Shown here piece by piece: positions 1-24,799 of a stretch of DNA of 64,000 nucleotides; the stretch's first letter is position 1, and every line of letters begins with the position of its first letter. This DNA is from a bacterium (lineage in GTDB: Bacteria; Elusimicrobiota; Elusimicrobia; UBA1565; UBA9628), in contig JAKAQO010000001.1 of the NCBI GenBank assembly GCA_021822495.1, positions 452,808 to 516,807 on the forward strand, in the 5' to 3' direction. The notes beneath the pieces are model-generated. The model was not told the origin of the DNA. It saw only the letters and a program-made list of their open reading frames with translations, and did no database searches. The position numbers were made by a program, and so were the translations under genes.

Positions 1-162
1 TTCAATCATTTCCTTATACGAGAGAGGATGCTTTTGATATTGCCGCATCCGAACGCTTTCTGAACAAAAAACGCAGTCTTGATTACAAACATAAGACATA
101 TGAAATTCAAGACGTTTGACGGGACGTTTGGGAGCTCCAACCGTCGTTTGGAAATCAGTCAA
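1..162 (-). CDS. Radical SAM protein, N-terminal fragment cut by window edge
   Basis: The first 54 codons of a minus-strand gene that continues past base 1. I translated it by hand. The frame is open to the edge and carries CNQDCVFC (Cys26, Cys30, Cys33 counted from the TTG start), the signature for the [4Fe-4S] cluster that cleaves S-adenosylmethionine. The local sequence (KRLEFHMSYVCNQDCVFCSE) resembles the N-termini of the proteins at 7179-8162 and 17362-18306, so it is probably another short radical-SAM enzyme of that subfamily. The proposed TTG start at 162-160 overlaps the TGA of the upstream gene (TTGA), as expected for coupled translation. The first in-frame ATG lies 21 codons further in, only four residues before the first cluster cysteine. 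The substrate is unknown. Confidence 0.8.
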   Translation of the reverse strand, partial: MTDFQTTVGAPKRPVKRLEFHMSYVCNQDCVFCSESVRMRQYQKHPLSYKEMIE

Positions 163-1178
163 GATTGCACCTCATCTAAGAATTCAATGGGAGTAATTTC
201 AGGTTCCCCATATAATTCTAAATAGGAACGATAAACTCCCATACAGAATGGACTCAGGCGGCATTTCTCGCAAGCCGAAACCTTGCCTCGAAAAACATCG
301 CGGCCCTTTTCATGCCAATTAAAACGCTGAGCCCCCCCCTTCTTATCCGGCCATAAAAAAGATACCTCCGTCGGCAAATCCATTCCTTCCTCGTAAAAAT
401 AACTCCGAAGGAGCCCCCAATTTTTGTGAAGGGAAGTCGGCAAAACGCAATAAGGAATTCCGCCAAAACTAAGCCTCATTTTGATTTCTTTTTCATTTTT
501 TAAAATTAGTCCCAGAACATACGGAATAACGTCTTTAAAGCGCGGAACAACGGTCTTGTCGTTTTTAACCCTGGATTCGGGCCAGATAAAATTAAAGCGG
601 ATATCATCTATCCCAAGAGATTTAAAAAAACGAACATAGTCTTCCATATGCGGAGCATTAGGGCGGCAAAGAACAGGGTTTAAAGAAACTCCATCTTTAA
701 AAAATCCTTGACCGCGAGCTTTAACCAGGTTTTTAATCGCTTGAATTTTCTTGTCTAAAATTTTTGGAACTCCAACCAAATATTCCTCAATTTCTGGGAT
801 ATGACTGTGAAGGGAAACCGTCACTCGAGTCAGCCCCGCATCCAGGCAGGATTTGAGAAAATCCTCATTGGCGAGACGCGTGCCGTTGGTGCACAAAGCA
901 ATGCGCTTATACCCCAAGTCCCGAGCCCGGCCAATACAATCAAGAATATGCGGATAGGCCGAAGGTTCGCCTCCCAGAAATCCCAGGGAACGCGCTCCCT
1001 CTTTAAACCGCGCCTCAATCTCCGCAAACATTCTTTTAGGGTCGGCCCACGGCTCATGATCATCACGATCTTCCCCGCTCATGCAAAAAACGCATTTATT
1101 ATTACAAAGCCTGCCGGGGTTAATCTCGACATTGATGAGTTTTTCAGTCCCATCCTGAAAGTATTTCGTCGCGCCCAT
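159..1178 (-). CDS. Radical SAM protein with C-terminal Cys cluster (paralog of 2071-3060)
   Basis: A 339-residue radical-SAM enzyme. CNNKCVFC (Cys25, Cys29, Cys32) binds the SAM cluster and GGEP (about residues 69-72) is the usual SAM-contacting motif. A CxxCx5C group near residues 303-312 could bind a second, auxiliary cluster. I chose the ATG at 1178, which overlaps the upstream TAA as TAATG; an upstream in-frame start at 1202 would add eight residues inside the neighbouring gene. The protein is a clear paralog of the one at 2071-3060, with near-identical sequence around the cluster motif and a shared RFNFIWP segment. The two copies flank a third radical-SAM gene, just downstream of the NifH-like gene. 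The reaction is unknown. Confidence 0.88.
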   Translation of the reverse strand: MGATKYFQDGTEKLINVEINPGRLCNNKCVFCMSGEDRDDHEPWADPKRMFAEIEARFKEGARSLGFLGGEPSAYPHILDCIGRARDLGYKRIALCTNGTRLANEDFLKSCLDAGLTRVTVSLHSHIPEIEEYLVGVPKILDKKIQAIKNLVKARGQGFFKDGVSLNPVLCRPNAPHMEDYVRFFKSLGIDDIRFNFIWPESRVKNDKTVVPRFKDVIPYVLGLILKNEKEIKMRLSFGGIPYCVLPTSLHKNWGLLRSYFYEEGMDLPTEVSFLWPDKKGGAQRFNWHEKGRDVFRGKVSACEKCRLSPFCMGVYRSYLELYGEPEITPIEFLDEVQS

Positions 1179-2074
1179 TAAGCCAACACCTCGTTTGAAC
1201 AAACCCCGATATTGTTCACAAAACGCGTCAATAGTTCATCAACCCGGCACGTCGAGTTCCAGGTTTCTCCCGCCCAGCGTTTGAGTATCTCGCGCAAAAA
1301 ACGCCCGTCTCGGCGCGCGTCTTTTTCTTTTGGCCAATCTTCAATTGAACCGATACGCAAAAAGGGACGCAACGCATCCATGCCCCGGCTTTCAATCAGG
1401 CTTGAGGAATAAACCGTTCCATCGGAATCAACCGTTAAGGCCGCGTTGTAAAGAGGAATCGGGCTAAAAACCTCTGAATTTTTAATCTTTAACTCAAGGC
1501 CCCTATCCCAGGCGCCCTTAAAAATTTGAAGGAGCGCCTGAAAAGTTTTTTCTAATTCTCCCAAATTTTCTTCACTCCAATGAGAAAAATAAGCCGGTAA
1601 AAAATTAAACTGACGGTATCCCTCGGAAATTAAAAACTTCATTTTCTCAACCACGCTTTCAGCCGACTGGTTTTGAGTCAAAACGAAGGTAAACCAAACC
1701 CCCGGCAAAGACCATCCCTCTTGAGCTCTAAAACTAAGAGTCACTTCCAACTCGGGGCGAACCTTAAGATAGGAAAGTTTTTCCTGATCTAAAAACATCC
1801 CGTTGGTAGAAACCTGAAATGAGATTTTGGTCTTCTCGGCGCGCGCTTCATCCACAATAGCTTTGATCACCGGCCAATTAAGAAAGGGTTCCCCGCCAAA
1901 AAATTTGACCTTGGGATGAGTTTCCGCCGGCAAATTCTGAAGATATTTCTTCACCGCCTTGCGGGCCACCCCTAAACTCATATCCTCTCCGGTAAATTCA
2001 ACGGGGCAAAACCCGCAACGGATATTGCAGCGGCGGGAAACAAGCAAACAAAGGCGGTGATCCAGCATATTCAT
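1178..2074 (-). CDS. Short radical SAM protein
   Basis: A 298-residue radical-SAM protein with CNIRCGFC (Cys16, Cys20, Cys23) and GGEPFLNWP, the latter resembling the motif of SPASM-type peptide maturases. It lacks the C-terminal CxxC group of its two neighbours, so it may carry only the SAM cluster. The ATG at 2074 overlaps the stop of the preceding gene as ATGA. The longer in-frame extension back to 2122 runs inside that gene and is unlikely. It lies between two paralogous radical-SAM genes in the same transcription unit. Substrate unknown. Confidence 0.85.
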   Translation of the reverse strand: MNMLDHRLCLLVSRRCNIRCGFCPVEFTGEDMSLGVARKAVKKYLQNLPAETHPKVKFFGGEPFLNWPVIKAIVDEARAEKTKISFQVSTNGMFLDQEKLSYLKVRPELEVTLSFRAQEGWSLPGVWFTFVLTQNQSAESVVEKMKFLISEGYRQFNFLPAYFSHWSEENLGELEKTFQALLQIFKGAWDRGLELKIKNSEVFSPIPLYNAALTVDSDGTVYSSSLIESRGMDALRPFLRIGSIEDWPKEKDARRDGRFLREILKRWAGETWNSTCRVDELLTRFVNNIGVCSNEVLA

Positions 2075-3060
2075 GCCGCGGCAAACTCCTCCTCTCCATA
2101 GAGAGAAACATAACTTCGCCAAACTCCCAAGCAGGCGGAATTAAGCGAACAATCTCGACAAACAGGCATTTTCATTCTGTGATCGTAGCGCGTGCGCGCT
2201 TTTAAGGTAAACCGATTGACCGTCCCCTCCTCATCGGGGTTAATAAAACCCACATCCGTTGGATGGTCTCGGCTCTCCTCGGAGAAATATTTAAACAGAA
2301 TATCTTTATGCTTTTTAAAGAAATCAGGGACCACGCAAAAGGGAACAGCCCCAAAACTAATCGAAATTTTCCATTCGCGCTCGTTAAGCAGAATCACTTT
2401 GAGGATTTCAGGCATCACATCGCGAAACCGCGGAATAACAGCGGTATCCGTCAGGACGCGGGACTGCGGCCAAATAAAATTAAAACGAATATCATTAATC
2501 CCCATGGATTTTAAAAAGTGAATATAGTTTTCCATATAAGGAGCATTTAAGCGATTGAGAACAGGATTAAGGGAAACATTGTCCGGCAAACGCCCGGAGT
2601 CGCGGGCGCTAATTAGGTTTTGAAGGGCCTTAATCTTCATCTTAAGAATCCCAGGAACTCCAACCAAGCGCTCTTCAATTTCTGGGATATGACTGTGAAG
2701 GGAAACCGTTGAGCGGGTCAGTCCCGCGCGAAGAGCTTCCTCAAAGAATCCGGTTTGAGCCAAACGCATTCCATTTGTGCAAAGAGCGATGCGCTGATAA
2801 CCCAGTTTTTTCGCATGAGAAATACTGTCGATAATATATGGATAGGCCGTCGGCTCTCCGCCCAAGAATCCAACTGAGCGCGCGCCCTGCAAGTAGTGAT
2901 ACTCTAATTCCCGCGCCACTCGGTCAAAGGAAGCCCAGGGATTATGGTCGTCGCGGTCTTCGCCGCTCATGCAAAAAACACATTTATTGTTGCAAAGTCT
3001 TCCGGGGTTAATCTCGACGTTTTTAACGCGAGCAGAAGAAACCCTATCGGACACAACCAT
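2071..3060 (-). CDS. Radical SAM protein with C-terminal Cys cluster (paralog of 159-1178)
   Basis: About 329 residues, with the CNNKCVFCMSGEDRDDH cluster region, FLGGEPTAYP and a C-terminal CxxC...C group (CRDCSLNSACLG) that could hold an auxiliary Fe-S cluster. It aligns along its whole length with the protein at 159-1178, which points to a gene duplication within the cluster. The start is either the GTG at 3063 or the adjoining ATG at 3060; I prefer the ATG. It follows the NifH-like gene directly: the stop of that gene is at 3064-3066. The tight linkage suggests that it acts with the nitrogenase-like reductase, but the reaction cannot be told from sequence. Confidence 0.88.
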   Translation of the reverse strand: MVVSDRVSSARVKNVEINPGRLCNNKCVFCMSGEDRDDHNPWASFDRVARELEYHYLQGARSVGFLGGEPTAYPYIIDSISHAKKLGYQRIALCTNGMRLAQTGFFEEALRAGLTRSTVSLHSHIPEIEERLVGVPGILKMKIKALQNLISARDSGRLPDNVSLNPVLNRLNAPYMENYIHFLKSMGINDIRFNFIWPQSRVLTDTAVIPRFRDVMPEILKVILLNEREWKISISFGAVPFCVVPDFFKKHKDILFKYFSEESRDHPTDVGFINPDEEGTVNRFTLKARTRYDHRMKMPVCRDCSLNSACLGVWRSYVSLYGEEEFAAA

Positions 3061-3063
3061 CAC

Positions 3064-3990
3064 TTAAAGCCGCCTCTCCCAAGCAAGCAGCGTGTCCTCA
3101 TCTGGCATTCCTCCATCAATGGAACTTGGATCTTTTTTCTCTGAGGACAACGCGGTTTTGACTCTTTTACCTTCAAAGGTCTCTCGAGAAAGAGCGTGGA
3201 ACTCCGCGTCGGTCAAGGGATTGGGAATGCGCTGGGGAGAAGCCGGAGTTTCAAGGAGAATCTGGGCTAAGGTTTTAATTCTCTGAACCAAGGGAGAATT
3301 GGGGTGCGTTTCAATTATTGTTTTCTTCTGATATTCGGCTTGACGAACCAAGGGATCGCGCGGTAAAAATTGCAAGACACGAGTCTCAATTAGATTGGCA
3401 AAACGATTAATGACGCCTTCATCGCAACCCGGATCTCTTAAGTTAGCGATGAGCCCTAAAAGGGAAATCCCGTTAGAAGCGTAATTGCAAACGGCTTTTG
3501 CGATATTATTGGCGGCATAAAGAGACATCAGCTCTTCCGATGTGACAATGACAACCTTATCGGCAAACCCTTGACGCAAGGGCGCGGCAAACCCCCCGCA
3601 AACAACGTCTCCCAAAACGTCATAAAGGATCGCGTCGTATTTCGAATCATCTACAATCCCAACTTCCTTAAGGATTTCGCTCATGCGGGTAATTCCACGC
3701 CCAGCGCATCCAATGCCCGGCTCGGGCCCGCCGGCTTCAACGCAGTCAATTCCATAAGACCCTTTGACCACAATATTGGAAGCTGGAGAATGTCCCCCCA
3801 AGAAAGCCGCGCTATCTAAAACCGTCGGAATTTGACGGCCTCCCGTGAGATAAACAGTCGTGTCATGTTTTGGATCGCAACCGACGACAAGAACCTTCAT
3901 CCCCATCTGGGCATAGACAATGGCCAAATTGGTCGTGGTCGTTGATTTTCCAATTCCACCCTTGCCAAACAAAACAATTTTGTGTTGCAT
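3064..3990 (-). CDS. NifH/BchL/CfbC-like Fe-protein ATPase
   Basis: A 308-residue homolog of the nitrogenase Fe protein. These homodimers hydrolyse ATP and pass single low-potential electrons from a [4Fe-4S] cluster to a component-1 partner. The Walker A motif GKGGIGKST (residues 9-17), the CDPKHDTT switch region (38-45), and both cluster cysteines, GIGCAGRG (Cys95) and GDVVCGG (Cys131), are present, so it should be functional. An acidic, charged tail follows the core. The ATG at 3990 has AGGGGTGA about 5 bases upstream; a TTG at 4008 is the alternative. Family members include NifH (N2), BchL/ChlL (protochlorophyllide), BchX and CfbC (F430 synthesis). The radical-SAM context and the lack of nif genes argue for a tetrapyrrole-type role. 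It lies directly after the two component-1-like genes. Confidence 0.93.
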   Translation of the reverse strand: MQHKIVLFGKGGIGKSTTTTNLAIVYAQMGMKVLVVGCDPKHDTTVYLTGGRQIPTVLDSAAFLGGHSPASNIVVKGSYGIDCVEAGGPEPGIGCAGRGITRMSEILKEVGIVDDSKYDAILYDVLGDVVCGGFAAPLRQGFADKVVIVTSEELMSLYAANNIAKAVCNYASNGISLLGLIANLRDPGCDEGVINRFANLIETRVLQFLPRDPLVRQAEYQKKTIIETHPNSPLVQRIKTLAQILLETPASPQRIPNPLTDAEFHALSRETFEGKRVKTALSSEKKDPSSIDGGMPDEDTLLAWERRL

Positions 3991-4000
3991 ACATTCACCC

Positions 4001-5845
4001 CTATCCAAGCGGAGTCGCCCATTTCCCCATGATGGCGTTCGCCATCCGATCGACGATATTCATCGTAGACTCCAAAGAACTCTCCAAGTCGTAATTCATG
4101 TCTCTTTCATCCAATTCAACAAACGCGCAATTGGGATTAAGAAGTTCGATTCCATTGAAATTAGAAATGAGTAAATCGCATTCCGGCGAAAGCTCATTCC
4201 AAGAAGACTTTACTTGATCATAAGAGCCCGCTTCATCTACGAAAACAGAAATAAGACTTACCCCCAATTCTTCAAACAAGGGTTTAATGGCTAAAAAAAC
4301 CTCTTTTTTCCCAAAAAAGATAAATTTCTTATTGAGAAAGACAAACGGAATCGCCCATTCCAAACGAGGAATTAATTTAGAGAGCTTTTGACTCATGGAA
4401 TTTTCTTTGAGTTTCTGATCTCCGCGGGACATCGCCTCCTTAAATCCAAATGGAAGGGATTCTGAAATATCTCGCGTGTGACGGCCTTGGACTGGAGATA
4501 AACGCGGACGAATTATTTTTTGATGAGAAGCGATTTGGTCCGCTATCCTCAGCGCGAAATCAAGGCAACCCCGAAAACCTAGAAACGGATGCCCTTCAAG
4601 AGCGTGATAAAAATAACTAGGGTATCCAAATTCGACAAATACCGCTTCTCCATTGACCATGCGCCGCACATCTCCGTTAGCGATAACGCAATCAACGCCC
4701 AAATCCCGCGCACGCGCATAGGAACGCCTTAAAAGTCCGGCCGTGGGACGTTCTAAGACGGAGGATTTCATCGCGCCAAAGGAAATATTTTTTTCAGGAA
4801 TACAGCCGACGGAGACTCGGCTTTCAACAGAAGCCCCTAATTCCTCAACCAGTGTCGAGATATTAAAAAGGGCATAGGGCTCAGCGGCAATCATAATTTT
4901 TTTGCCCTGGATATAGGTCTTTGAAAGGAAATCCAAAGGCTGCGAAAGACGCGCTTTTTCATCTTGGATAAAATTCTCGGCGCGGTTTTCATGACCTACG
5001 GCTTCTCCTAAGCGGCGCACCCATGTTTCAGAATTTTTCATTCCCCAAGGCAAATCAAGTTCAATAAGTTTTGCATGGGTCTTTTCAGCCACGATACGAG
5101 CCGCATCGCGGGCATAAGGCAAGGAAATAATCCATCCCGCATCGCGGGCCCGCCGTAAACCTTCCAAAGACCCGCCATCCGGCCACACGCTGACTAGATC
5201 AAGCCCCGCGCCCGCTACAAGACGTTTAAGCTCGCGGAGATTAGAGTAATGGTCATCCTCTGTTCGATCCATGAAATATCCGACAATGGCGGCCTTTTTT
5301 TCATCCCGAAGACCCCCGGAAAGTTCCAGGGACTCCGCCAATCCTTTCAAACCCTCGGCGTATCCATCCAGGAAAAAAGCTCTCAAAGAATTGGACGGAA
5401 TATGAACGACGGGTTTTCCGAGCTCTGAGGAGACATCACGGCTGACCTTAACATAGTCTGTACCGGTCAATAAACACATCGGCATTGCGGCAAAAAATAT
5501 CGCCTCAATATCCTCGCGCGCCTTGAATTTCAAGAGGGCTTTCCCGATGGCCTCTTCTCGGGAGACAACGGTGTTGCGAACGTCCGTTCCGCTAAAGAAA
5601 ATACGATAGCTTTCGACGCAGTCCAGGATGCTTGAATTAAAATCGTGCTTTCCAAACACGTGTTCAGCTTTTCCCATCACGCAATCCGGACCATCTATAA
5701 ACGCGGCGGAATCAGAAATCGCGTTAACCAAAAGATAAAGCCCCGTCAAATAGGTGTAATCTAATGGCTGTCCATAACGATCAAGAGAATCTGTCTCTGG
5801 AGAGATTAAGCGGGGCTCAACCCTTGGTAAGATTAATCCGCCCAT
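4001..5845 (-). CDS. Nitrogenase component 1-like subunit (NifD/BchN/CfbD-like), extended
   Basis: A 614-residue protein of the NifD/K/E/N-BchN/B superfamily, the catalytic partner of the NifH-like protein. Cys55 (GPDCVMGK) and Cys124 (MPMCLLTG) sit where the family binds its Fe-S cluster between subunits; Cys76 may be a third ligand. A Rossmann-like segment near residues 300-330 (KIMIAAEPYALFNISTLVEE) is typical of the fold. The last 150 or so residues add another such segment (FIFFGKKEVFLAIKPLFEEL), making it longer than usual subunits of about 400-540 residues. I see no FeMo-cofactor Cys/His pair. The start at 5845 has a strong GGGAGGT ribosome site and overlaps the upstream gene by 13 bases. 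The substrate is unknown; a tetrapyrrole is the best guess by analogy. Confidence 0.82.
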   Translation of the reverse strand: MGGLILPRVEPRLISPETDSLDRYGQPLDYTYLTGLYLLVNAISDSAAFIDGPDCVMGKAEHVFGKHDFNSSILDCVESYRIFFSGTDVRNTVVSREEAIGKALLKFKAREDIEAIFFAAMPMCLLTGTDYVKVSRDVSSELGKPVVHIPSNSLRAFFLDGYAEGLKGLAESLELSGGLRDEKKAAIVGYFMDRTEDDHYSNLRELKRLVAGAGLDLVSVWPDGGSLEGLRRARDAGWIISLPYARDAARIVAEKTHAKLIELDLPWGMKNSETWVRRLGEAVGHENRAENFIQDEKARLSQPLDFLSKTYIQGKKIMIAAEPYALFNISTLVEELGASVESRVSVGCIPEKNISFGAMKSSVLERPTAGLLRRSYARARDLGVDCVIANGDVRRMVNGEAVFVEFGYPSYFYHALEGHPFLGFRGCLDFALRIADQIASHQKIIRPRLSPVQGRHTRDISESLPFGFKEAMSRGDQKLKENSMSQKLSKLIPRLEWAIPFVFLNKKFIFFGKKEVFLAIKPLFEELGVSLISVFVDEAGSYDQVKSSWNELSPECDLLISNFNGIELLNPNCAFVELDERDMNYDLESSLESTMNIVDRMANAIMGKWATPLG

Positions 5846-7182
5846 GAATTTCTACCTCCCAGATAGCGGCCATACTCTCTGTAAAACGGCAAGCGGCATA
5901 TCCCCAACAGCCTTTCAAACGTCCGCAAAGCCCCCCACGGCCCCGCTTCAAAAACGGAAAGAGAAAATTGCGCTTTTCCCGCTCGACTGATTCTTCGATC
6001 GAAAAAATAATCAGAATAAACCGCGTCAAAAGCGCCCTCTTTGAGAAGGCGGTTTAATTCTTCTTCTTTGGAAAAGAAATCCACCGAAGCCTTAAACTGG
6101 GCGTTTGGAAGTTTCAATTTCAAATGATTTTTGGAAAAAATAAGAAAATCGAAATCAAAACCCATTTCGCTCAACATCTCAAACATTGGAATAGCGAAAG
6201 TCCAGCGGGAATCGATAATTTGAGGAATTTGCCTCGGCGAAAGAACAAAGGCTAGTCTTCTGCCCCGAGACTGACTCACTAGATTTTCCCACCGGCTTTT
6301 GAGGGGACTCCAATTCTTTCCCCAAACTTCCTGCGCGATTTGGCGATTGATACCGGCAGCTTCGCACACAGCTTCCAGCCACAAACGCCCTGCTTTGATG
6401 CCATAGGGCGCGGGCGGCGTCAAGGAATGCGTCGGAAATTGCAAGGCGAAATCTTTCGACTCACTCTCAAAAAGACGATGCCCAATCATGATGTTGAGAG
6501 ACGCCTTTCTCGCCAAACGCAGGGCTTCAAAGCCCAAAGAGGGAACGACGCAAGCGGCGACTGAAATCCCCGCTTGGTTTAGAAGTGAAACGAGTTCCTC
6601 CCGAGCCTTGCCCCCGGGATACCCGACCAGATTCACCGTCTTAGGCTCCGGCGAGAAATCTTTTTGCTTTTCCGATGATTTCTTAATCATCTCCTCCGTC
6701 GTTGAATAGGCAACATCGCGGCCATCGGAGGCGCGATAGATGCTTTTTATCTTTTCGCCGTGTTTGGGTAGAAAAGGCGTCGGATCCTCTCCGGTTAAAT
6801 CGGGAACGCAGGCGGAGTTAAGCATGATGATGTCATCAGGCCGAGCTTCTTGAGCCGCCAACCTAAAAGAATCTTCCACTTTTTTAAGGCTCTTTTGTCC
6901 TTCGGTCACCTCGGTCTCATTTAAATCCGTAAAAAGAAGTTTATAGGCTGCCGGTTTGGTCTCTTGATTGGCGATAGTCCAAGGAAAATTCCAAAATGGA
7001 ACTGTTTTCCCGTCAAACCATGGGAAGGTATAACGGCATTCAAGGTCTCCGTGCATGATATCAGTCGTTGGATTCTCGGGCACAAAAGAAGTTCTTCGGT
7101 GTCTCTGAATGTCCTCTGGACAGAAAAACCGGGCCCACAAATCTTGAAGAGCCGTGTGTAAAACGTAATTAAGAACGCTCAT
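5833..7182 (-). CDS. Nitrogenase component 1-like second subunit (NifK/BchB-like)
   Basis: A 449-residue protein related to nitrogenase component 1 beta-type subunits. Cys49 (GDLECRY) and Cys125 (LNSACVPDLTGED) match two family cluster ligands; the second resembles the TxCxxExIGDD region of NifK-type proteins. Together with the 614-residue neighbour it would form a hetero-oligomeric reductase, like DPOR or NifDK and unlike the homodimeric CfbD. The ATG at 7182 overlaps the preceding stop as ATGA; the upstream in-frame start at 7230 lies inside the neighbour. The order is K-like, D-like, H-like, all minus strand and overlapping or nearly so, which strongly suggests a single complex. The family is divergent, so subunit naming is by resemblance only. 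Confidence 0.78.
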   Translation of the reverse strand: MSVLNYVLHTALQDLWARFFCPEDIQRHRRTSFVPENPTTDIMHGDLECRYTFPWFDGKTVPFWNFPWTIANQETKPAAYKLLFTDLNETEVTEGQKSLKKVEDSFRLAAQEARPDDIIMLNSACVPDLTGEDPTPFLPKHGEKIKSIYRASDGRDVAYSTTEEMIKKSSEKQKDFSPEPKTVNLVGYPGGKAREELVSLLNQAGISVAACVVPSLGFEALRLARKASLNIMIGHRLFESESKDFALQFPTHSLTPPAPYGIKAGRLWLEAVCEAAGINRQIAQEVWGKNWSPLKSRWENLVSQSRGRRLAFVLSPRQIPQIIDSRWTFAIPMFEMLSEMGFDFDFLIFSKNHLKLKLPNAQFKASVDFFSKEEELNRLLKEGAFDAVYSDYFFDRRISRAGKAQFSLSVFEAGPWGALRTFERLLGICRLPFYREYGRYLGGRNSWAD

Positions 7183-8162
7183 GCGAGAACTCCTGTCGGG
7201 GACAAGGCGCGAAGGCTTTGAACCGTCCAAGGTTTTAGAGCCTCGCTTTCAAACAACTGCGTATAATCCCAATAGATTCCTCCGCAACGGCCTTTTAAAG
7301 CGCAATGGCCGCAGTCCTCGGGATAAAATTTCTCTCGAGAAGAGAACTCCGTATTTTCAAAATGCCAGCCAATTTTTCCGTTTTCCAGACGAGCCCGGGC
7401 GATCGTGGTGCGCGGACTATAAAACAAATCGTTAGAATAGCGCCAATAAGGCCCTAAAAGGCAAACAGGAATTCCATAAAAGCGCAAAGCGACTCTACGC
7501 TCTTGAGCTAATTCATGTAACTTAGGCAGGTGACGGGTAATTTCCTGATGTCGCACCGCCAAATCCTTATAATGCGCCCCACCGCCCCCATGCGGAGTGA
7601 TGTTTGAAACCAGAAATTGATCTAATTTCCCGTTGCGACTCAAAACATCCAACGTTTCTGGAATAACAGAAACATTCAGCCTCGTCACGACGTGATTAAT
7701 CATTAAAAAATTCAAATTTCCAAAATGAGAGATATGCCTCATCGCCAACATCAATTTATCAAAACTTCCGGAGACGCGCGTAGCCTGGTCATGAATTTTT
7801 TTATTAGGCCCATGAACTGATAGACATAGTTCATCGACATAGGGCAAAAGCTTCTCCGCATATCCTTGATTAGCGAGAGCGGAGCCATTGGATATGACAA
7901 AAACTCGATAGCCTATCCTCTTGGCGAAAGCCGCGATTTCCCAGAATTTGGGATACAGAGTCGGCTCTCCTCCAGTAAGCGTGACGTGATCAAAACCTTC
8001 CTCTCTTTTTGCCTCAAGCATCCCCAATATTTCTTCGCGCGAAACCGGAAAACCTCCGAATTCCCGCATATGGAATTCCTCGCTGCAAAAAACGCAGCGG
8101 TCAACACAGCGATAGATGATGTGAAACTCAAGACGCTTCATGGAATTTACGGATAAACTCAT
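7179..8162 (-). CDS. Short radical SAM protein with C-terminal CxxC group
   Basis: A 327-residue radical-SAM protein. YRCVDRCVFC gives Cys19, Cys23 and Cys26; TGGEPTLYP is the GGEP motif; and CGHCALKGRCGG near the C-terminus could bind an auxiliary cluster. It has the HDxxTxxxGSF segment shared with the proteins at 8159-9091, 17362-18306 and 33663-34556, which defines a subfamily within this cluster. The start at 8162 overlaps the preceding stop as ATGA. The internal ATG at 8141 is less likely. It is directly upstream of, and coupled to, the component-1-like genes, so it probably works on the same substrate. Reaction unknown. Confidence 0.87.
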   Translation of the reverse strand: MSLSVNSMKRLEFHIIYRCVDRCVFCSEEFHMREFGGFPVSREEILGMLEAKREEGFDHVTLTGGEPTLYPKFWEIAAFAKRIGYRVFVISNGSALANQGYAEKLLPYVDELCLSVHGPNKKIHDQATRVSGSFDKLMLAMRHISHFGNLNFLMINHVVTRLNVSVIPETLDVLSRNGKLDQFLVSNITPHGGGGAHYKDLAVRHQEITRHLPKLHELAQERRVALRFYGIPVCLLGPYWRYSNDLFYSPRTTIARARLENGKIGWHFENTEFSSREKFYPEDCGHCALKGRCGGIYWDYTQLFESEALKPWTVQSLRALSPTGVLA

Positions 8163-9091
8163 GATTGAGAAACCTCGGCGGATTTAAAAGGTATCAGTTC
8201 CGCATCTCCAAATTTTTCACAATAACGGGCTCCAGGACCGCCGCAAGGCTCGCGATAAGCGCACCCTTGGCATTTTTGAGTCAAGGTCTGAGCCGGATCG
8301 GCCAGGGAACTGTCCATCTCCCGCAAAGAGGGTTTTCCTTCTTTGTCGCGCACTCGAAAAACACTGAGAGCCGGATAGCGTTCCCAAACAACAGAGTTTT
8401 GATGGCGGCCATTGAGAATACAAAAAGGAAGTCCATAAAATCGAAGCGGAACCGGGCTCGCGCGACGCGCCATATCCTCAATTTTCTGGGCAATTACGCG
8501 ATGCTCTAAAATCAACTCATCATAATGGCGAGAACCATGGCCGATGGGAACTAATTCCGAAAGCCAGAACTCCTTGATTTTTGCTCTTTGATTGATTAAT
8601 GAAATGAGTTCCGGCAAGGAATTGATATTGATGGTCGTCGCAACCATGTTGACCGTAATTGTTGTTTTTGGACTCATCGAAGCGTTGTTTAAGGCTTGCA
8701 TCATTCTCTCAAAACTCCCGCAAGAACGGGTCATCTGGTCATGGCTTTCCGGAGTTCCGCCGTGGATGGATAAACAAAGCTCATCTAGGTATGGTAGCAC
8801 AGTTTTGACGGCAGAAGGCGCGGCAAATCCCGCTCCATTTGAGACGGCGCGGGTTCGGTAGCCCAAGCGTTTTGCAAACTGAAGAATAGCCCCAAAACGC
8901 GGATAGAGACTGGGTTCTCCTCCCACAAAACTCACATGGGAAAACCCTTCCCGCCTTTTGCGCAAAAGAATCATCTGCACTTCTTTTTCCTCAAGGGGCC
9001 ACGGGGCAAAAGCCTTCATGATTTGGGCATGGCTGCAAAAAACGCAGTCCACATCGCATTCGTAGGATAAGGTTATTTCAAGACAGCGCAT
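8159..9091 (-). CDS. Short radical SAM protein with C-terminal Cys-rich group
   Basis: 310 residues. CDVDCVFC (Cys12, Cys16, Cys19) and VGGEPSLYP mark the radical-SAM core. CQGCAYREPCGGPGARYC near the C-terminus suggests an auxiliary Fe-S cluster. It shares the HDQMTRSCGSF segment with its short radical-SAM relatives in the window. It overlaps the HemN-like gene upstream by 14 bases and is coupled by ATGA to the next gene, consistent with tight co-translation. Substrate unknown. Confidence 0.87.
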   Translation of the reverse strand: MRCLEITLSYECDVDCVFCSHAQIMKAFAPWPLEEKEVQMILLRKRREGFSHVSFVGGEPSLYPRFGAILQFAKRLGYRTRAVSNGAGFAAPSAVKTVLPYLDELCLSIHGGTPESHDQMTRSCGSFERMMQALNNASMSPKTTITVNMVATTININSLPELISLINQRAKIKEFWLSELVPIGHGSRHYDELILEHRVIAQKIEDMARRASPVPLRFYGLPFCILNGRHQNSVVWERYPALSVFRVRDKEGKPSLREMDSSLADPAQTLTQKCQGCAYREPCGGPGARYCEKFGDAELIPFKSAEVSQS

Positions 9092-13600: not shown

Positions 13601-15850
13601 TCAGATTTTGCGAATGCACTCTAAAATTCCCCTTTCTTTTTCTAATTGCATTATGATTCCCTCAAGGCGCCCCACCTCTTTCATCTCTCTGTTCTCATTC
13701 AATATTCGAGTTAAAATAGAAGCAATATCAAGAAGTTGAGAATTATACATCACATCTGCTGCGCGCATGGCGAGAAGAGTTTTTGGCGAATTCGGTCTCT
13801 GCCTTCGCTCAACGAAACTGCGGACCATGCTCTTCTTTTGTAAGATTCGCGCCGCTCTACAATCATCTCTACCAATCAAGCAAATTTCGGCCAACAAAGC
13901 TCGTTCAATATCTTCTATTTCTCGTTGTAGATGGAAGATATCCGGCATATGCCAACGGATCCAATGGTAGGAAATATTGTCCTGACTCGGAAATTCCTGC
14001 GAAACTGCTTCAATAAAATCCAGATAGGCTTCTTTCCGCCTGCCCGCGAAAAAGAATGCCTTTCCTCTCCACAATCTGGGAAGAATAAATGTTGGAGACA
14101 TTCTAAGAGCGCAATCTAAACTCTCAATCGCTCTTTCATATTTCCCAGCCCTAAAGTAGGATTCTCCCAACCATGTCCAGGTCAAGGAGTTCCGAGGATT
14201 TTGTTTAAGCGCTTTAAGCAGCATCACGCGAGCTTGATTGATTTTATTATCGTTAAGATAAAGTCTCCCTATCCATGAAGGGGAATGCTCCAATAAACGT
14301 TCTCTTATCAACGGTGCGCCCCAAGCGGGGAAAGGCGAGGCCAATCGATTCCGTATTCGTCTACGGAGATTCTTTAGTTTCTGAAAAGAAGGAGAACTCT
14401 CTCCATAAATAGGCATAGGCCCCACACTGACCAAGTCATCATCCCCGGAATAGCTCAGGGAATATTTTCCGGAAGACATCATGCATTTCTCAAGTTCCTC
14501 AAGCGCGTCCTTCCATTGTTCCAATCGCCATAGAACTAAGGATTTTTCATGGATAGCTCTTTCGTGGAAAAAGAGGGCATTAACCCTCATTGAAAGAGAA
14601 GAATCTAAATCTTTTTTAGCTTCCACAAATTTCCCTTGAGAATTCTCCAGGCGAGCCCGCCAATAATAAGACAGCGCATAATCCTTATCCAGCCGAATTG
14701 CCTCATCAATATCTTCAAGGGCTTTTGTGGAATCCGTTTTTCTTCTCAATATCTGCGACCTAAAAGCTCTGATCCAACCGCAATGCGGAGCCAACCTCAC
14801 GGCATCTTCTATACACCCCTCTCCATAACTGGACAGATCATATCCAGCCTGTTCCTCAAGTGGGACGGAGGCCATTCGTGCCGCTAACGCATAATGCCAA
14901 GCGCGCCTAGATGACATCGCCAAATTTTTGAGCTCGAAATCAATACGATGAAATTTTGAAATAGAGATGAAGGAATGATAAAAAAGCAGATCGTGCGCAA
15001 CCATATAAGCCCATTCCGCCTGGGGATTCTTAGCGATAAATTGGCTAACAATCTTTATCAGTTGAATGGTATCTATGGGTCTATCCGAAATATCGATTTT
15101 CTCTTCTAGTAAAATAATTCGGATAAATCCGTCTAAAATATTGCACCCCCTATAAACGGCCTCATACGCCGCATCAATCGCAGAGTTTTTGTCTCCCAAT
15201 CTCCACAAGATATCAGCCTCTATGACCCATAAACCCGGAGAGCGGGGATTTAGATTTTTCGCCATTGAAATTTTCTTCTTGGCCTCCTCCCATCGGCATA
15301 ACTTCATCTTGACGATAGAATCTAAAACCCAAGCTACTTCCAAACGAGTATCCGCCTGTTCTATTATTGATAGATCAAAATCGGCCAACTCCCACTCTCC
15401 GCCAATTATGTACGCATAGGAACGCCACAATCTAAAATAGGTATTGCACTCATCTGCCTTTACGGCGCTATTCAGGCAACTCAAAGCAACTGAGATGTTG
15501 TTGGATAAAAAGCATTCGCCCTTTAGCGCATCTACCCATGGATGTCCCGGAGAAATTTTTTCGGCTAACTCTAAATTTCTCATTGCCTCATTAGGAAACC
15601 CCATTAATCTATTGAATCGGCCAAGAGCGCAAAAATCCCAGAATTCTCGAGACGAAACCTCTTCTAATTTTTCGAGAGACTCTTTATAATAGTCAGCACG
15701 ACGCGCAGAAGCAAAGGGAAGAAAATAATCGAAATTAAAAATAGAAATTCCCTTATAAGCCAGTGATAATACGTATTGTTCTATTCGTGGATGAATCCAC
15801 AAAAGATCAAGATCAGGAAGTTTAACCGCAGGCTTTAAAAGAGTCTCCAC
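13601..15850 (-). CDS. Large tetratricopeptide-repeat protein
   Basis: 749 residues made largely of helical 34-residue TPR-like units. Clear examples are WTWLGESYFRAGKYERAIES followed by LDCALRMSP in the C-terminal third, and ALSYYWRARLENSQGKFVEA in the middle. I see no signal peptide or catalytic motif, so it is probably a cytoplasmic scaffold. It sits between two HemN-like genes (gaps of 10 and 1 bases), which suggests that it assembles or organises those enzymes or binds a peptide substrate. A Cys-poor sequence argues against redox function. The scaffold role is inference from context only. Confidence 0.85.
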   Translation of the reverse strand: METLLKPAVKLPDLDLLWIHPRIEQYVLSLAYKGISIFNFDYFLPFASARRADYYKESLEKLEEVSSREFWDFCALGRFNRLMGFPNEAMRNLELAEKISPGHPWVDALKGECFLSNNISVALSCLNSAVKADECNTYFRLWRSYAYIIGGEWELADFDLSIIEQADTRLEVAWVLDSIVKMKLCRWEEAKKKISMAKNLNPRSPGLWVIEADILWRLGDKNSAIDAAYEAVYRGCNILDGFIRIILLEEKIDISDRPIDTIQLIKIVSQFIAKNPQAEWAYMVAHDLLFYHSFISISKFHRIDFELKNLAMSSRRAWHYALAARMASVPLEEQAGYDLSSYGEGCIEDAVRLAPHCGWIRAFRSQILRRKTDSTKALEDIDEAIRLDKDYALSYYWRARLENSQGKFVEAKKDLDSSLSMRVNALFFHERAIHEKSLVLWRLEQWKDALEELEKCMMSSGKYSLSYSGDDDLVSVGPMPIYGESSPSFQKLKNLRRRIRNRLASPFPAWGAPLIRERLLEHSPSWIGRLYLNDNKINQARVMLLKALKQNPRNSLTWTWLGESYFRAGKYERAIESLDCALRMSPTFILPRLWRGKAFFFAGRRKEAYLDFIEAVSQEFPSQDNISYHWIRWHMPDIFHLQREIEDIERALLAEICLIGRDDCRAARILQKKSMVRSFVERRQRPNSPKTLLAMRAADVMYNSQLLDIASILTRILNENREMKEVGRLEGIIMQLEKERGILECIRKI

Positions 15851-18306: not shown

Positions 18307-19793
18307 TGCTGGTTAATTTTATAATAGATACGGCAATCTCGCCGCGAATAACTGTCAATGACTGATTTTCTCCATTCCTGATCGCCCACAGCGTAGCGTT
18401 TTAAAAAATCTTGAAAGCAATCATGATCGGCCGATAAAACCATATCGCGGATAAACGGGCTGTAAAGGCTTTTGAGGGCGATAGCTTTCTCAAGCCAGTC
18501 TTCAGTCTCCCAAAAAAGTGCGTTCTTATCTATTCTAATAATACCTTCACACTCCATTCGAAGAAGAACTGATGACAAAAAATCTACCTCCAGCATATCT
18601 ACTCCAAAGAGAGAGCGGAAAGACCTGCGTGAAACGAACCTATTTTCTCCTAAAAATCCGATAATAAAAGAGCGCATTTCCTCTTCGATGCTGAAGTCAA
18701 CTGAGAAAAACGGAGGAATGACGGGGTGGGGCAATTCTCTGCTGGCTGGAATCATCTCATGGTGATACCACAAGGTTCCAAACGCGTGCGAAACGGTTCC
18801 ATATCCCAAAGCCAAGATAGATCCTTTTCCGCGCCGCCAAGGCGCCTCTCGGGTTGACTCAGAATCGCAAAGAATGGAGCTTTTACATTCATCAGAACGA
18901 TACCCGGCCTTACCAGCCATATAGTCCGCTAATTTCAACAAATGCTCCATTTGAGCGCGCTTCTCAAGAGATACTCTTCCAGACTTTTGACTAAATTGAG
19001 TCTGTGGCGAATCTTTGAAGAGATAAAGGTGCATACAATCTGGTTTAAGACTAAGGGCCGTTTCCATATCTTTAATAAATATAGAAGGAGTCTGCCCCTC
19101 AAGACCCACAATGAGGTCGATATCCGTTGTCAGATTAGGAACGCAAGCAAGCATCTGAAAAGCTTCAATTGAGTTCTCTCTTGTCTGGCCCTGTCGGTTA
19201 AGAGAGCTCAAAAGTTTATTATCAAAGGTCTCAATTCCCATCGCAATGCGATTAAAACCATGCCTGAGTAAAATATCCAATTTTGATTTTGTCAGCGTGG
19301 CTGGAGAACTCTCTGAATAAATCTCAGCCCCAGGAGCGAAATTAAAATATCTCTTAATATAAGAGAGAAAATCGTCCAACATATCGTCATCCATAAAAGT
19401 CGGGGTTCCGCCCCCGATATAAAAACTCGAAAGCAAAATTCCAGAAAAAATAGGACTAAATAAATCAATTTCTTTTTTCAAGGCTTGAAGACCTGCTTTA
19501 ACGACCTCGCGCCCATGAGGAACCGCCATTTGGCAAAAGCAAAAACTGCACTGCGAAGGACAAAATGGCCAGTGTATATAGAGATTGATCTCTGGCGGAG
19601 CTAACCCCTCGCGGATAAGACGAATTGTTTTCTTCCATCCTGAAACAATATCCACGGATTGAGATGCTTTAAAACAACTAGAAGGACTGTGAATATCTCC
19701 GACAGGGAAATATCTCCGATTGTCATAAGTTGCCGCTAAAAAAGCCGCCCAGTCTGGGATATTAAGTTCAGCAACTCCAGAATTTTTGGTCAT
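18303..19793 (-). CDS. HemN-like radical SAM protein
   Basis: 496 residues. HWPFCPSQCSFCFC (Cys78, Cys82, Cys85, Cys87), GGGTPTFMDD and MGIETFDNKLLSSLNRQGQ place it among the HemN-like paralogs. It has the conserved N-terminal extension (PDWAAFLAATYDNRRYFPVG) and the C-terminal winged-helix-like part. It overlaps the degenerate paralog upstream by 26 bases. Family knowledge gives SAM-radical chemistry, commonly on tetrapyrrole side chains. The actual reaction here is unknown. Confidence 0.88.
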   Translation of the reverse strand: MTKNSGVAELNIPDWAAFLAATYDNRRYFPVGDIHSPSSCFKASQSVDIVSGWKKTIRLIREGLAPPEINLYIHWPFCPSQCSFCFCQMAVPHGREVVKAGLQALKKEIDLFSPIFSGILLSSFYIGGGTPTFMDDDMLDDFLSYIKRYFNFAPGAEIYSESSPATLTKSKLDILLRHGFNRIAMGIETFDNKLLSSLNRQGQTRENSIEAFQMLACVPNLTTDIDLIVGLEGQTPSIFIKDMETALSLKPDCMHLYLFKDSPQTQFSQKSGRVSLEKRAQMEHLLKLADYMAGKAGYRSDECKSSILCDSESTREAPWRRGKGSILALGYGTVSHAFGTLWYHHEMIPASRELPHPVIPPFFSVDFSIEEEMRSFIIGFLGENRFVSRRSFRSLFGVDMLEVDFLSSVLLRMECEGIIRIDKNALFWETEDWLEKAIALKSLYSPFIRDMVLSADHDCFQDFLKRYAVGDQEWRKSVIDSYSRRDCRIYYKINQQ

Positions 19794-21111
19794 AATAGAT
19801 GCGCGTTTTTGAATGCAATTGCCTCAAAGCGACTTGTCTTTTTATTTCTTCATTATTTTCTTTAAAGTTTATCGAAAATTCCCGGAGAGCATACCCATCA
19901 GCCTTAAGCAATCTTTTGATAACATGAGGGCTCAAAAACCACTTCAGACAAGTCGCTTTTTCAAACGCATCTCTCCCAATCCATGAGATAAAATCATGGT
20001 TGACGGAGATTAAGCCTAATTTCACTAAGCGAGAAAACAATGGGTTTAAGAACTCAACTTCCAGCGCGTCTCTCTTAAATAAATCCTTAAAATTTCGGCG
20101 AGAAAGCCTATTTGTCTGTTCTAATGACCCCAACGCATAAGACCTTATTTCATCCTCCATGCTCCAATCAGTCACGGCGTTATAACGAAAACCATTACCC
20201 ATGCGAGGTGAAAATTCGCAAGCATACCATCCAACACCAAAAGCATGAGACATCACTTGGGGGCCTAAGCCTACGCTAGAAAAACGCAATTTATGTTTTG
20301 AACGCCAAACCTTTGTCTCCCAAGGCCAAAAATCCAAGTAGCCAATCCGATCATCTTCTTGCATGGCATAACCGTTCTTTCGCAAATAAGAGCCCAGTAA
20401 ATCCCACCAATTGGTTTTAAAACGTGGAGAATTTTCAATTGAACTCAAACATAAAATTTGAGGCCTTATCTTTAAAACATCCTTTAATTTTTTTTCAAAA
20501 GATTCTGCGCTATAGATATCCTTGACAGAAACCTCCAAAGAGAGCATGATTTTAGGAAGTTCCTTCAAAGAACTTAAGATGCCCTCTAAATTTTTATTCT
20601 CTTGGGGAGAAATATGAAGAGAAACAGAGGAAACATATCTCAGAATATTTCTTCCAACCTTTGCGGCACGATCTAAAATCTTAAGAGAGAAAAAGGCTCC
20701 GGGCTCAAGATCGAACTGTTCCCTAATCAAACACAAAAATTCTTCAATTTCATCAACCGATGAATTCATAGCCTCAAGAGATACTCCCTTAAACGGAATC
20801 CCGCGAAAAATCCCACCTAGATTAGATATATCTCTCTTTAAAATCTCCGTGGTATTTCTTTCTAAAGGAAGAACAATTTCTAAAGCTATTTCTTCTGGGA
20901 TGACTCTTTGCTGCCTAAGTAAAAGATACTCATTCCATAATTGATAGATATAGGACGATTTTACTGGATCAAAATAGGCAGGTAAATGGGTTGAACTCTT
21001 CCGTGGGAAACAGTAGTATTGCCGATAATTGGCGGATAAAAACTCAGGCCAAAGAAAAGATGAATCTGTTTTGAGCGGTTGAACCCTTCCTGCGGTCAGA
21101 AGCCGCTCCAT
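19768..21111 (-). CDS. Degenerate HemN-like paralog without cluster cysteines
   Basis: 447 residues, co-linear with the HemN-like neighbours. It keeps the N-terminal extension (LWPEFLSANYRQYYCFP), an SHAFGVGWY segment and the C-terminal winged-helix part (MEDEIRSYALGSLEQTNRLS), but the region that should hold HWPFCxxxCxFCxC reads ALEIVLPLERNTTEILKRD, with no cysteine. It cannot bind the SAM cluster and is likely a non-catalytic partner or scaffold. The frame is intact over the full length, so it is not an ordinary decaying pseudogene. The start is the ATG at 21111, or a TTG at 21117 just after the upstream stop. Confidence 0.8.
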   Translation of the reverse strand: MERLLTAGRVQPLKTDSSFLWPEFLSANYRQYYCFPRKSSTHLPAYFDPVKSSYIYQLWNEYLLLRQQRVIPEEIALEIVLPLERNTTEILKRDISNLGGIFRGIPFKGVSLEAMNSSVDEIEEFLCLIREQFDLEPGAFFSLKILDRAAKVGRNILRYVSSVSLHISPQENKNLEGILSSLKELPKIMLSLEVSVKDIYSAESFEKKLKDVLKIRPQILCLSSIENSPRFKTNWWDLLGSYLRKNGYAMQEDDRIGYLDFWPWETKVWRSKHKLRFSSVGLGPQVMSHAFGVGWYACEFSPRMGNGFRYNAVTDWSMEDEIRSYALGSLEQTNRLSRRNFKDLFKRDALEVEFLNPLFSRLVKLGLISVNHDFISWIGRDAFEKATCLKWFLSPHVIKRLLKADGYALREFSINFKENNEEIKRQVALRQLHSKTRIYYDQKFWSC

Positions 21112-21117
21112 GCGCAA

Positions 21118-22173
21118 CTACTCTTGGGAATCCGACGGGGAAGGCCCCTGCGGGGGTTGTTTGTTCATGAGGGAACGCTTAATTTTTTGAAAACGTTTGA
21201 GTTCCTCGGCTCGTTCCTGTTTTTTGTCGTAGTACTTTTCCTTCTGATCTTGTGGTAAGAAGTTTATGAATTTATCGCCATCTTTATAAGGTGGCAAATG
21301 GTTAATTTTGCGAAATGTCGCTTCTTGGTGGATCATTTCCGAAAACTTATGCTTGACAAACCCAACGCAATATTCACGTACAGCCGCCTTTTGCTTTAAT
21401 TTCAAGGCCTCTTCCAAAGATTCTTTTAGAGGGGAGCAGGCATCTCCATGTGATATGCTAAGAAGGCCTCTACAAACGGCAGAATCTCCGCACAAAGCGG
21501 GATCCCCTTTTGAGCGAACCATCGCCGCCATATCCTTACAGTGCTCGGCATAAGCCGAACCCCACTTGGACATTCCCATACAGGCCTTGGACCCCGCCAA
21601 ATAAGCGAACTGATGTTTACAAGACGGATCCGTCATCCCAAGATTCTCGCAAAGTTTGGCCGGAGTCATTCCCTGTCTTATGCCTTCTACCATCTTCGAG
21701 CAAAGACGATTCCGTTGATCTAAAGGGATTGAAGCGGAAGAGGGAATGGTTTTCAAACACAATGAAACCGCTCCTGGAGATTTGGAAACCATCGCGGCAA
21801 TAGACATATCCTCTTCATAACGCCTCTGACAAGAAAGAACTCCTTTAGACCCGCAACTTTTTTGAAATTTAGCGCAAGGTTTCATGCTCTTAGCAATTAA
21901 GGCCCTACAGACTTGGTAAGACATCAACTTGCCTTCGCATTGGGCAGGCAAATGCCCCTTCGGCATATGAGCGCCACGGGAATAATCAATGGATTCTGGA
22001 GGGGTCTTGAGACATTGTTCCGTTAGAAAACGTTTAAGGCCGGCTTTTGTCCGCGGCAAATTAGCATAGGCCGGGGCAACAGTATGATGCGGCGGAGGCG
22101 GCTTAGGTCCTGCCGCAAAAGCAGAAACAGACGTTAGAAAGGGCAAAAAACCAAAACAAAAAATATATTTCAT
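21118..22173 (-). CDS. Secreted cysteine-rich protein
   Basis: 351 residues. The N-terminus (MKYIFCFGFLPFLTSVSAFAA) is a clear signal peptide, followed by a proline/histidine stretch (GPKPPPPHH). The mature part holds 16 cysteines spaced at roughly 10-25 residues (for example KPCAKFQKSCGSKGVLSCQ), suggesting many disulfides or metal sites; no CxxCH heme motif is present. The C-terminus is charged. The gene begins three bases after the stop of the HGS-repeat gene, so the two are almost certainly co-expressed. It may be an export partner or envelope receiver of the modified repeat protein. I do not recognise the family. Confidence 0.78.
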   Translation of the reverse strand: MKYIFCFGFLPFLTSVSAFAAGPKPPPPHHTVAPAYANLPRTKAGLKRFLTEQCLKTPPESIDYSRGAHMPKGHLPAQCEGKLMSYQVCRALIAKSMKPCAKFQKSCGSKGVLSCQRRYEEDMSIAAMVSKSPGAVSLCLKTIPSSASIPLDQRNRLCSKMVEGIRQGMTPAKLCENLGMTDPSCKHQFAYLAGSKACMGMSKWGSAYAEHCKDMAAMVRSKGDPALCGDSAVCRGLLSISHGDACSPLKESLEEALKLKQKAAVREYCVGFVKHKFSEMIHQEATFRKINHLPPYKDGDKFINFLPQDQKEKYYDKKQERAEELKRFQKIKRSLMNKQPPQGPSPSDSQE

Positions 22174-24041: not shown

Positions 24042-24251
24042 TTAGGCCATTTGGGCGAGGACGTGATTGGAAAACTCTCCCCAAAACTCCTCGTTTATTT
24101 CGGTTCCAGATTCAGGCCGAACAAAAATTTCAATTTTTCCATTTTCCTCGGCGATGGAAAATTGAGCGAACTCCGAAAAATCCGTCGCCGCGGATTCTAC
24201 CGCTTTTTTTGAATACAAAGATGAGTCAAGGAGATATTTTTTCTCGCTCAT
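24042..24251 (-). CDS. Small HxsD-like protein
   Basis: 69 residues, with YSKKAVESAATDFSEFAQFS and a following beta-rich part (KIEIFVRPESGTEINEEFW). It looks like a shortened relative of the HxsD-like protein just upstream (YSLESIYKACYHFLEKFYV...VYFRPKSGT). In Hxs loci HxsD is a small partner of the maturases, probably in substrate recognition. The ATG at 24251 overlaps the upstream stop as ATGA. It is between the larger HxsD-like gene and HxsB, so a two-part recognition system is possible. Confidence 0.7.
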   Translation of the reverse strand: MSEKKYLLDSSLYSKKAVESAATDFSEFAQFSIAEENGKIEIFVRPESGTEINEEFWGEFSNHVLAQMA

Positions 24252-24799
24252 CTCTTGGGCGTCCCCGGCGCGGCATTTGCAGCGGATGAAGGATTTTTAT
24301 CTTCCCAGGGAGCGCTAATTTTAAGGGGGTCATCTCCCTCGGAAGATTTTTCTACCTCAGCCAAAAGCTTTTCGATTTCTTTTTCCAATTCTTCATCCAA
24401 GACCGGAGAAGACGCCTCTGAATCGGATCCGTCTTTTGAAGAAGGGCTTCCACCGCCCATTCCCTCCGCTCCAGAAAGGGCGCCTTTCATTTCCGGGGTC
24501 ACGCCTTCCGCCGCGGCCAAGGCCTGGGTCACGATATATTCTCTGATTTTTTGATTGGAAGCCGACACCTTTGCGCGGAGGGCCTGATGAATCAGCTCGT
24601 TTTGAAAATCGCCCAAGGCTTCCTCTAGGGATTTTTCCGGAGTCCCGGATTTGGGCCGGAAATAGACCATGACAGCCTCTTTAGGATCGCCATCCAGCCT
24701 CACATAGAATTTCTCAAGAAAATGATAACACGCTTTATAAATAGACTCAAGACTGTAAAGCCCGACTTTGATTTCGACGCTTTTCTCGTTTGTGTTCAT
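24248..24799 (-). CDS. hxsD: HxsD-like protein with acidic C-terminal extension
   Basis: 183 residues. The first 105 or so match the HxsD pattern as I recall it: LYSLESIYKACYHFLEKFYV, a strand with FRPKSG, and ALRAKVSASNQKIREYIVTQ. The rest is an acidic, Ser/Gly/Pro-rich tail (for example DEELEKEIEKLLAEVEKSSE) that is probably disordered or coiled. HxsD is a small non-catalytic member of His-Xaa-Ser systems. It begins 33 bases downstream of the membrane TPR gene and is coupled to the small paralog. The extension is unusual compared with the typical length of about 100 residues. The symbol is by resemblance. Confidence 0.78.
   Translation of the reverse strand: MNTNEKSVEIKVGLYSLESIYKACYHFLEKFYVRLDGDPKEAVMVYFRPKSGTPEKSLEEALGDFQNELIHQALRAKVSASNQKIREYIVTQALAAAEGVTPEMKGALSGAEGMGGGSPSSKDGSDSEASSPVLDEELEKEIEKLLAEVEKSSEGDDPLKISAPWEDKNPSSAANAAPGTPKR

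Follow-up and report, generated by a model that had tools for sequence, protein, structure and literature searches.

A nitrogenase-like reductase in a radical-SAM gene array of an Elusimicrobiota bacterium: a possible tailoring module of an Hxs-like island

A stretch of 64,000 nucleotides from an uncultured Elusimicrobiota bacterium of the UBA9628 lineage (assembly GCA_021822495.1, contig JAKAQO010000001.1, positions 452,808 to 516,807), called the window in the following, carries the genes of a nitrogenase-like reductase amid a large array of radical S-adenosylmethionine (rSAM) genes. The reductase comprises a NifH-like protein (component 2) and two component-1-like subunits, here termed alpha-like and beta-like, and is encoded in a packed gene run on the minus strand which starts at 24799 and continues past base 1 of the window (Table 1). 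The rSAM array extends roughly 2 kb beyond the left edge of the window, has its other end at about 24.8 kb and is longer than first described. In the direction of transcription, HxsD and HxsB are followed by a Cys-rich protein, a HemN-like protein without the CxxxCxxC motif, three rSAM proteins, a TPR-repeat protein and three HemN/STM4012-like proteins, and then by two HxsC-like proteins, the alpha-like and beta-like subunits, the NifH-like protein, three rSAM proteins, a further rSAM protein and an A24 peptidase. About half of the 30 rSAM matches of the 2.2-Mb genome lie within this array. A sequence-only reading of the stretch had proposed that the reductase genes overlap or adjoin rSAM genes on both sides, which was borne out: the stop codon of the preceding HxsC-like gene overlaps the ATG of the alpha-like gene at 7182, an HxsC4-like gene abuts the NifH-like gene at 3064, and the flanking genes on both sides belong to the rSAM superfamily by Pfam. 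Compared with a same-genus relative, the three reductase genes and the adjoining rSAM genes show pN/pS values of 0.12-0.27, i.e., purifying selection. Genome-wide checks were made by family searches, and neighbour clusters were built from codon-scored gene calls, as clustering of six-frame open reading frames produced many antisense artefacts.

The NifH-like protein features the Walker A motif GKGGIGKS and the cluster cysteines Cys95 and Cys131, both invariant in 85 of 85 relatives, which confirms the earlier assignment of this gene. It is the only full-length NifH match in its genome. None of the related NCBIfam models reached its cut-off (given in brackets), with nifH scoring 296 bits (394), CfbC 289 bits (402) and BchL 206 bits (345). 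In a tree of H proteins, computed without CfbC and BchX, a clade of NifH, MarH and the Sporomusa plasmid Nfl protein (support 98/95) does not take in the window protein; beyond its own genus, the closest relatives of this protein are fusions of H and alpha-like domains. A phylogeny had been proposed as a check by the sequence-only reading, and this tree places the protein outside NifH.

The component-1 likeness of both genes, as had been suggested, is borne out by matches to PF00148, and the two subunit types can be told apart by profile and fold. The family profile of the alpha-like subunit scores MarD best (102 bits) and NifE next, while that of the beta-like subunit scores NifK/AnfK best. 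The AlphaFold model of the alpha-like subunit (pLDDT 83) is closest to MarD (Z 24.6, root-mean-square deviation 3.5 over 359 residues) and NifD (Z 24.5). For the beta-like model (pLDDT 78), BchB was the best match (Z 34.9, root-mean-square deviation 3.3 over 400 residues), tied with NifN (Z 34.1) and with similar values for VnfK and AnfK in finer alignment; Foldseek returned NifN as the top match of the beta-like model, and NifE was a high match of the alpha-like one. An assignment of 4001-5845 as the D-like (alpha) subunit, based on its stronger Pfam score, was rejected in view of these profile and structure searches. Residues from about 446 to 614 of the beta-like subunit form an extra C-terminal segment, which is present in full only in the same genus and partly in genome G223. 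It weakly matches (E about 1e-9) a portion of a beta-like domain in other paralogues and resembles part of a second domain of this kind.

The alpha-like subunit keeps Cys49 and Cys125 with no cysteine between them, so that the second P-cluster position is empty, and the beta-like subunit has Cys55, Cys76 and Cys124 at P-cluster positions. Thus, five of the six P-cluster positions are filled by cysteine in the window proteins, and three are kept throughout the family. In the family alignment of 111 rows, the only conserved alpha cysteines are Cys49, Cys125 and a C-terminal one; the two at P-cluster positions are kept in 110/111 and 111/111 sequences, as is one beta cysteine (111/111), and the two further beta cysteines occur in 37/111 and 61/111. 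No conserved cysteine was found in these 111 rows at the position of the iron-molybdenum cofactor (FeMo-co) ligand, NifD Cys275, in agreement with the earlier statement that ligands of this cofactor are missing. A conserved beta histidine was considered as the equivalent of NifD His442 and rejected, because it aligns with NifK and is not evidence for FeMo-co. The ligand pattern is neither that of DPOR nor that of the P-cluster. From the conserved cysteines, the alpha/beta interface probably holds a [4Fe-4S]-type cluster rather than a P-cluster plus FeMo-co, and a FeMo-co-type cofactor is not expected in this enzyme.

The gene run has a second characteristic, its likeness to the His-Xaa-Ser (Hxs) radical-SAM system, which reportedly goes back to Haft and Basu. 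Within the run that also encodes the reductase, both HxsB and HxsD score above their curated cut-offs, and they are accompanied by several HxsC-like rSAM proteins, the best of which reaches 88 of the 268 bits demanded for HxsC in the part of the array scanned. The window differs from this system in its many additional rSAM genes and in having the nitrogenase-like module, an A24 peptidase and a secreted protein rich in cysteine. In a set of 295 genomes of the phylum, HxsB was detected in 34 of the 36 bearing the reductase vs. 42 of the 259 others. In 13 genomes it lies at most 25 kb from the reductase, compared to 1.8 expected (P about 3e-9, a strength which is overstated as kinship was ignored). 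The most frequent neighbour apart from rSAM proteins, found at 18 distinct reductase loci, is a membrane protein that is about 400 residues long and bears the motifs of A24 prepilin peptidases. Its identity is indicated by a PF01478 match of a homologue (L085:13342, E 4e-6) and by the motifs DFKTRRVPN and PAGDAK in the copy next to the window (L004:16042-17208), for which no NCBIfam match was obtained. Likewise, island loci repeatedly contain Cys-rich proteins that are secreted or anchored in the membrane. Islands of HxsD, HxsB, rSAM and A24 genes were also observed without a reductase in the stretch read (G097, G125, G198, G258, G200, G107, G057), and where these genomes were searched, none had a reductase match. 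As the islands occur with and without it, the reductase can be regarded as a module added to an Hxs-like island.

The beta-like protein was matched in 39 of the 295 genomes. The family described here accounts for 36 of them, often in several copies, and three are distant, e.g., the locus L057 9494-17666 of family f15 (G023), whose H protein groups with MarH. Many relatives have H and alpha fused (about 750-900 residues) ahead of beta, and at some loci the alpha/beta pair is doubled or tripled. When named genomes were scanned, members of the family turned up in Elusimicrobiota, Myxococcota/Deltaproteobacteria, Bradymonadales, a Spirochaetes metagenome-assembled genome (MAG) and a Bdellovibrio MAG; relatives were recovered from GWA2, RIFCSP and NC_groundwater Elusimicrobia MAGs and from Myxococcota. 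Two citing papers (PMC9391474, PMC11257099) speak of 'group VI' and, after Meheust 2020 ISME J, ascribe to it a putative role in tetrapyrrole biosynthesis, in agreement with the study mentioned by the sequence-only reading. The window locus comes from the same phylum, has neighbouring rSAM genes as in that group and fits the locus type of groundwater Elusimicrobia, probably as a member of this described but uncharacterised group; it differs from many relatives by its separate H and alpha genes and by the extra C-terminal segment of beta. In the work of Meheust and colleagues from 2020 on groundwater Elusimicrobia, group VI reportedly occurs in Myxococcota as well and is co-located with large rSAM arrays.

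The complete H/alpha/beta gene order with the corresponding folds, the invariant motifs, the presence of HxsB and HxsD in the same run, the association of HxsB with the reductase across genomes, the recurrence of the A24 peptidase, the existence of reductase-free islands and the persistence of the enzyme in carriers of the related family f5 devoid of tetrapyrrole biosynthesis argue for an optional, ATP-driven, low-potential tailoring reductase in the rSAM-dependent modification of a protein or peptide within an Hxs-like island. Judged by this gene context, a probability of roughly 0.42 is assigned to this reading. In such a process, the NifH-like dimer would hydrolyse ATP and pass single electrons to the alpha/beta component, as suggested by the conserved motifs and the known superfamily, and component 1 would carry the Fe-S cluster at the alpha-beta interface. 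HxsB, the HxsC-like and HemN-like rSAM enzymes and HxsD might modify a protein or peptide that is made by ribosomes and exported, with the Cys-rich secreted protein of the window as a candidate substrate. The putative reaction of the reductase, placed after the rSAM enzymes on grounds of gene context, would be the reduction of a bond created by them, and trimming of the product on its way out of the cell may be the task of the A24-type peptidase. This last idea stays weak because, in a scan of the Cys-rich proteins, a clear prepilin leader was found on one only (L130/L049).

Several other observations weigh against this reading. Two genomes of the same genus (G071, G223) keep the reductase without a detected HxsB, with contigs ending inside or close to the array. 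The repeat precursor HxsA had no TIGR03979 match in the window's own genome and none over cut-off in 12 genomes, for which reason the island is not called a classical Hxs system. The rSAM genes nearest to the reductase score below every named cut-off, and in several Myxococcota and part of the f5 genomes the 10 kb around the reductase hold few rSAM genes or none. Furthermore, the Hxs system is without a demonstrated product in the literature examined, and genes that lie together need not act in one pathway.

The published prediction offers the main alternative, namely a tetrapyrrole reductase similar to DPOR, COR or CfbCD which reduces a porphyrinoid double bond to give a new cofactor, with HemN-like rSAM enzymes also modifying the porphyrinoid. 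BchB chains are the best structural matches of the beta-like model, the window is rich in HemN-like rSAM genes, proteins with B12-binding domains occur in two related loci, hemB and hemC are present in the window's own genome, and the prediction is cited for group VI in the papers named above. Yet hemB is missing in 14 of 17 reductase carriers of family f5, including the 98-100% complete G028, G087, G113, G230 and G269. A full hemC is missing from seven of the eight f5 carriers in which it was sought, and 11 of 12 stay below the cobA cut-off, with G109 as the exception in both cases. G113 lacks hemB, hemC and cobA, yet has five HemN-like rSAM genes beside its fused reductase. Since many carriers have no tetrapyrrole pathway, tetrapyrrole reduction is not supported as a family rule, and the prediction is weakened in its generality. 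CobA/CysG was not found in the window's own genome, so neither a siroheme nor a corrin or F430 branch exists there and a sirohydrochlorin-type, CfbCD-like substrate is not made, although a heme-branch substrate is possible. CfbCD also differs in that its component 1 is made up of CfbD alone, as a homodimer, whereas the window has two distinct component-1 genes, even if its NifH-like protein scores CfbC nearly as high as nifH. Regarding DPOR, the resemblance in subunit pattern claimed by the sequence-only reading stood in part: the H plus alpha/beta architecture with two component-1 genes, the lack of FeMo-co and the match of beta to BchB are shared. NifN, however, ties with BchB, the alpha-like subunit is closest to MarD and NifD, and the DPOR and CfbC models remain far below cut-off, with 20-40 bits for alpha and beta vs. 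324-490 demanded for BchN/BchB. The ligands disagree as well. In DPOR, the cluster is bound by three cysteines and one aspartate, the cysteines coming from BchN and the aspartate from BchB, but the window alpha has only cysteines 1 and 3, and the window beta has a cysteine in the place of the aspartate (first position). Carriers may take up tetrapyrroles from outside, and the substrate could vary among members of the family. As a reading of the enzyme, tetrapyrrole reduction appears rather unlikely.

A reductase of C-S or C-O bonds in small molecules, akin to the group IV enzymes MarHDK or IsrHDK and assisted by an rSAM partner, would agree with the nitrogenase-like nature of Mar and Isr, with the rSAM partner required by Isr and with the MarD score of the alpha-like family profile. 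MarD, however, requires Cys270 and His429 for its [Fe8S9C] cluster (PMC12552129), whereas the window has no conserved cysteine at the Cys270 position and lacks the second alpha P-cluster cysteine. The genome is devoid of nifB, the H protein stands apart from the NifH and MarH clade, no sulfonate or methionine genes were seen nearby, and 15 or more rSAM genes would be left unexplained, which renders this option rather improbable. Slightly less credit is given to a metallocluster scaffold or repair machine in the manner of NifEN and NifH, supplying or reducing Fe-S clusters for the rSAM enzymes. The top Foldseek match of beta to NifN and the high match of alpha to NifE would suit it, and several relatives have two or three adjacent alpha/beta pairs, as nif loci carry DK and EN. 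On the other hand, NifN ties with BchB, VnfK and AnfK in finer alignment, related rSAM islands lack the reductase, and a nifB-like cluster source is absent. A true nitrogenase is for practical purposes refuted by these results, and the window enzyme almost certainly does not fix nitrogen. Although no NCBIfam model scores the reductase higher than nifH, this score stays below cut-off, the protein falls outside NifH in the tree, and a FeMo-co cysteine is missing. The earlier statement that nifB, nifE and nifN are absent was upheld, as the 94.7% complete genome has no TIGR01290 match and only two PF00148 genes, i.e., no second component-1 pair (nifEN).

The function of group VI has thus far been the subject of a single published guess, repeated in later papers, against whose generality the genomes argue. 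New here are the testing of this prediction of a tetrapyrrole role and the connection drawn to an Hxs-like island that includes a peptidase and exported proteins rich in cysteine. As this connection provides candidate substrates and partners, the function becomes testable. The characterised nitrogenase-like enzymes named in the literature examined act on small molecules or tetrapyrroles. Returning to the tailoring of a protein or peptide, it may be supposed, more tentatively than for tailoring as such, that the reductase acts on a genetically encoded peptide or protein. This would represent a novel type of post-translational reduction: many rSAM enzymes would begin a modification, and electrons at nitrogenase-type potential would complete it. 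Both the chemistry of nitrogenase-like enzymes and the biology of rSAM-modified peptides would thereby be widened.

Table 1. Features of the gene run around the nitrogenase-like reductase (window coordinates unless a locus is named; scores are profile matches)
Feature	Position	Strand	Evidence
A24 prepilin-type peptidase, outside the window, adjoining the next rSAM gene	L004:16042-17208		motifs
rSAM gene, 5' end, leaving the window	1..162 (L004:17181-18161)	-	
rSAM, HxsC4-like	159..1202	-	Pfam and NCBIfam scan
rSAM, PapB/peptide-maturase-like	1178..2122	-	Pfam; NF047865 75 bits, below cut-off
rSAM, HxsC4-like	2071..3063	-	PF04055; NF038332 134 bits, below cut-off 500
NifH-like ATP-dependent reductase (component 2)	3064..4008; ATG form 3064-3990, 308 residues	-	PF00142 Fer4_NifH E 3e-85
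Component-1 beta-like subunit, 614 residues	4001..5845	-	PF00148 E 1e-40
Component-1 alpha-like subunit	5833..7230; ATG form 5833-7182, 449 residues	-	PF00148 E 2e-15
rSAM, HxsC-like, overlapping the alpha-like gene	7179..8162	-	TIGR03977 88 bits, cut-off 268
rSAM, HxsC-like	8159..9091	-	Pfam and NCBIfam scan
Three HemN/STM4012-like rSAM genes	9078-10610, 10595-12094, 12076-13590	-	PF04055
TPR-repeat protein within the array	13601..15850	-	
HemN-like rSAM	15852-17357	-	
HxsC-like rSAM	17362-18306	-	
HemN-like rSAM	18303-19793	-	
HemN-like protein, CxxxCxxC lost	19768..21117	-	no Pfam match; resembles HemN-like relatives
Secreted Cys-rich protein, 17 Cys, Sec-type N-terminus	21118..22173	-	
HxsB, rSAM/SPASM maturase of the His-Xaa-Ser system	22554..24038	-	TIGR03978 502 bits, cut-off 370
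HxsD	24248..24799	-	TIGR03976 65 bits, cut-off 50

Two of the three HemN/STM4012-like genes were scanned and reached 147-154 bits with the STM4012 family and 118-126 bits with hemN, all below cut-off. Besides the genes of the window, an rSAM class comprising 16 proteins was found beside nitrogenase-like genes only and never in reductase-free islands; the window has no member of it. This class (L063 6045-7040, L084 2538-3770, L100 10531-12114 and 13 others) is common to Elusimicrobiota and Myxococcota, and it is possible that it constitutes an obligate partner. Other relatives show further arrangements. At L130 7741-20200 and L134, a fused H-alpha gene and beta lie amid at least a dozen rSAM genes in a span of 20 kb. 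At L065 799-19699 (G218) and L083 (G111), two to three alpha/beta pairs and H genes are adjacent, which recalls nifDK beside nifEN, and among these paired sets the beta of one pair is short by about 60 residues. On a plasmid of Sporomusa termitida (L189 7998-11270), a nitrogenase-like H gene and two component-1 genes directly follow an iron/siderophore-type ABC transporter, with no annotated rSAM genes nearby.

The window region 24832-29173 encodes two long paralogous membrane proteins, of which that at 24832-27084 has C-terminal TPR repeats; this kind of protein recurs near such loci (8 distinct genes). A cobalamin adenosyltransferase-like gene, recognised by eye, lies at 34609-35163 in this genome without CobA/CysG and adjoins the rSAM genes at 31445-34556. 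The first of these (31445-33661) encodes a protein of 738 residues with tandem rSAM domains, as seen from two separate PF04055 matches in one open frame.

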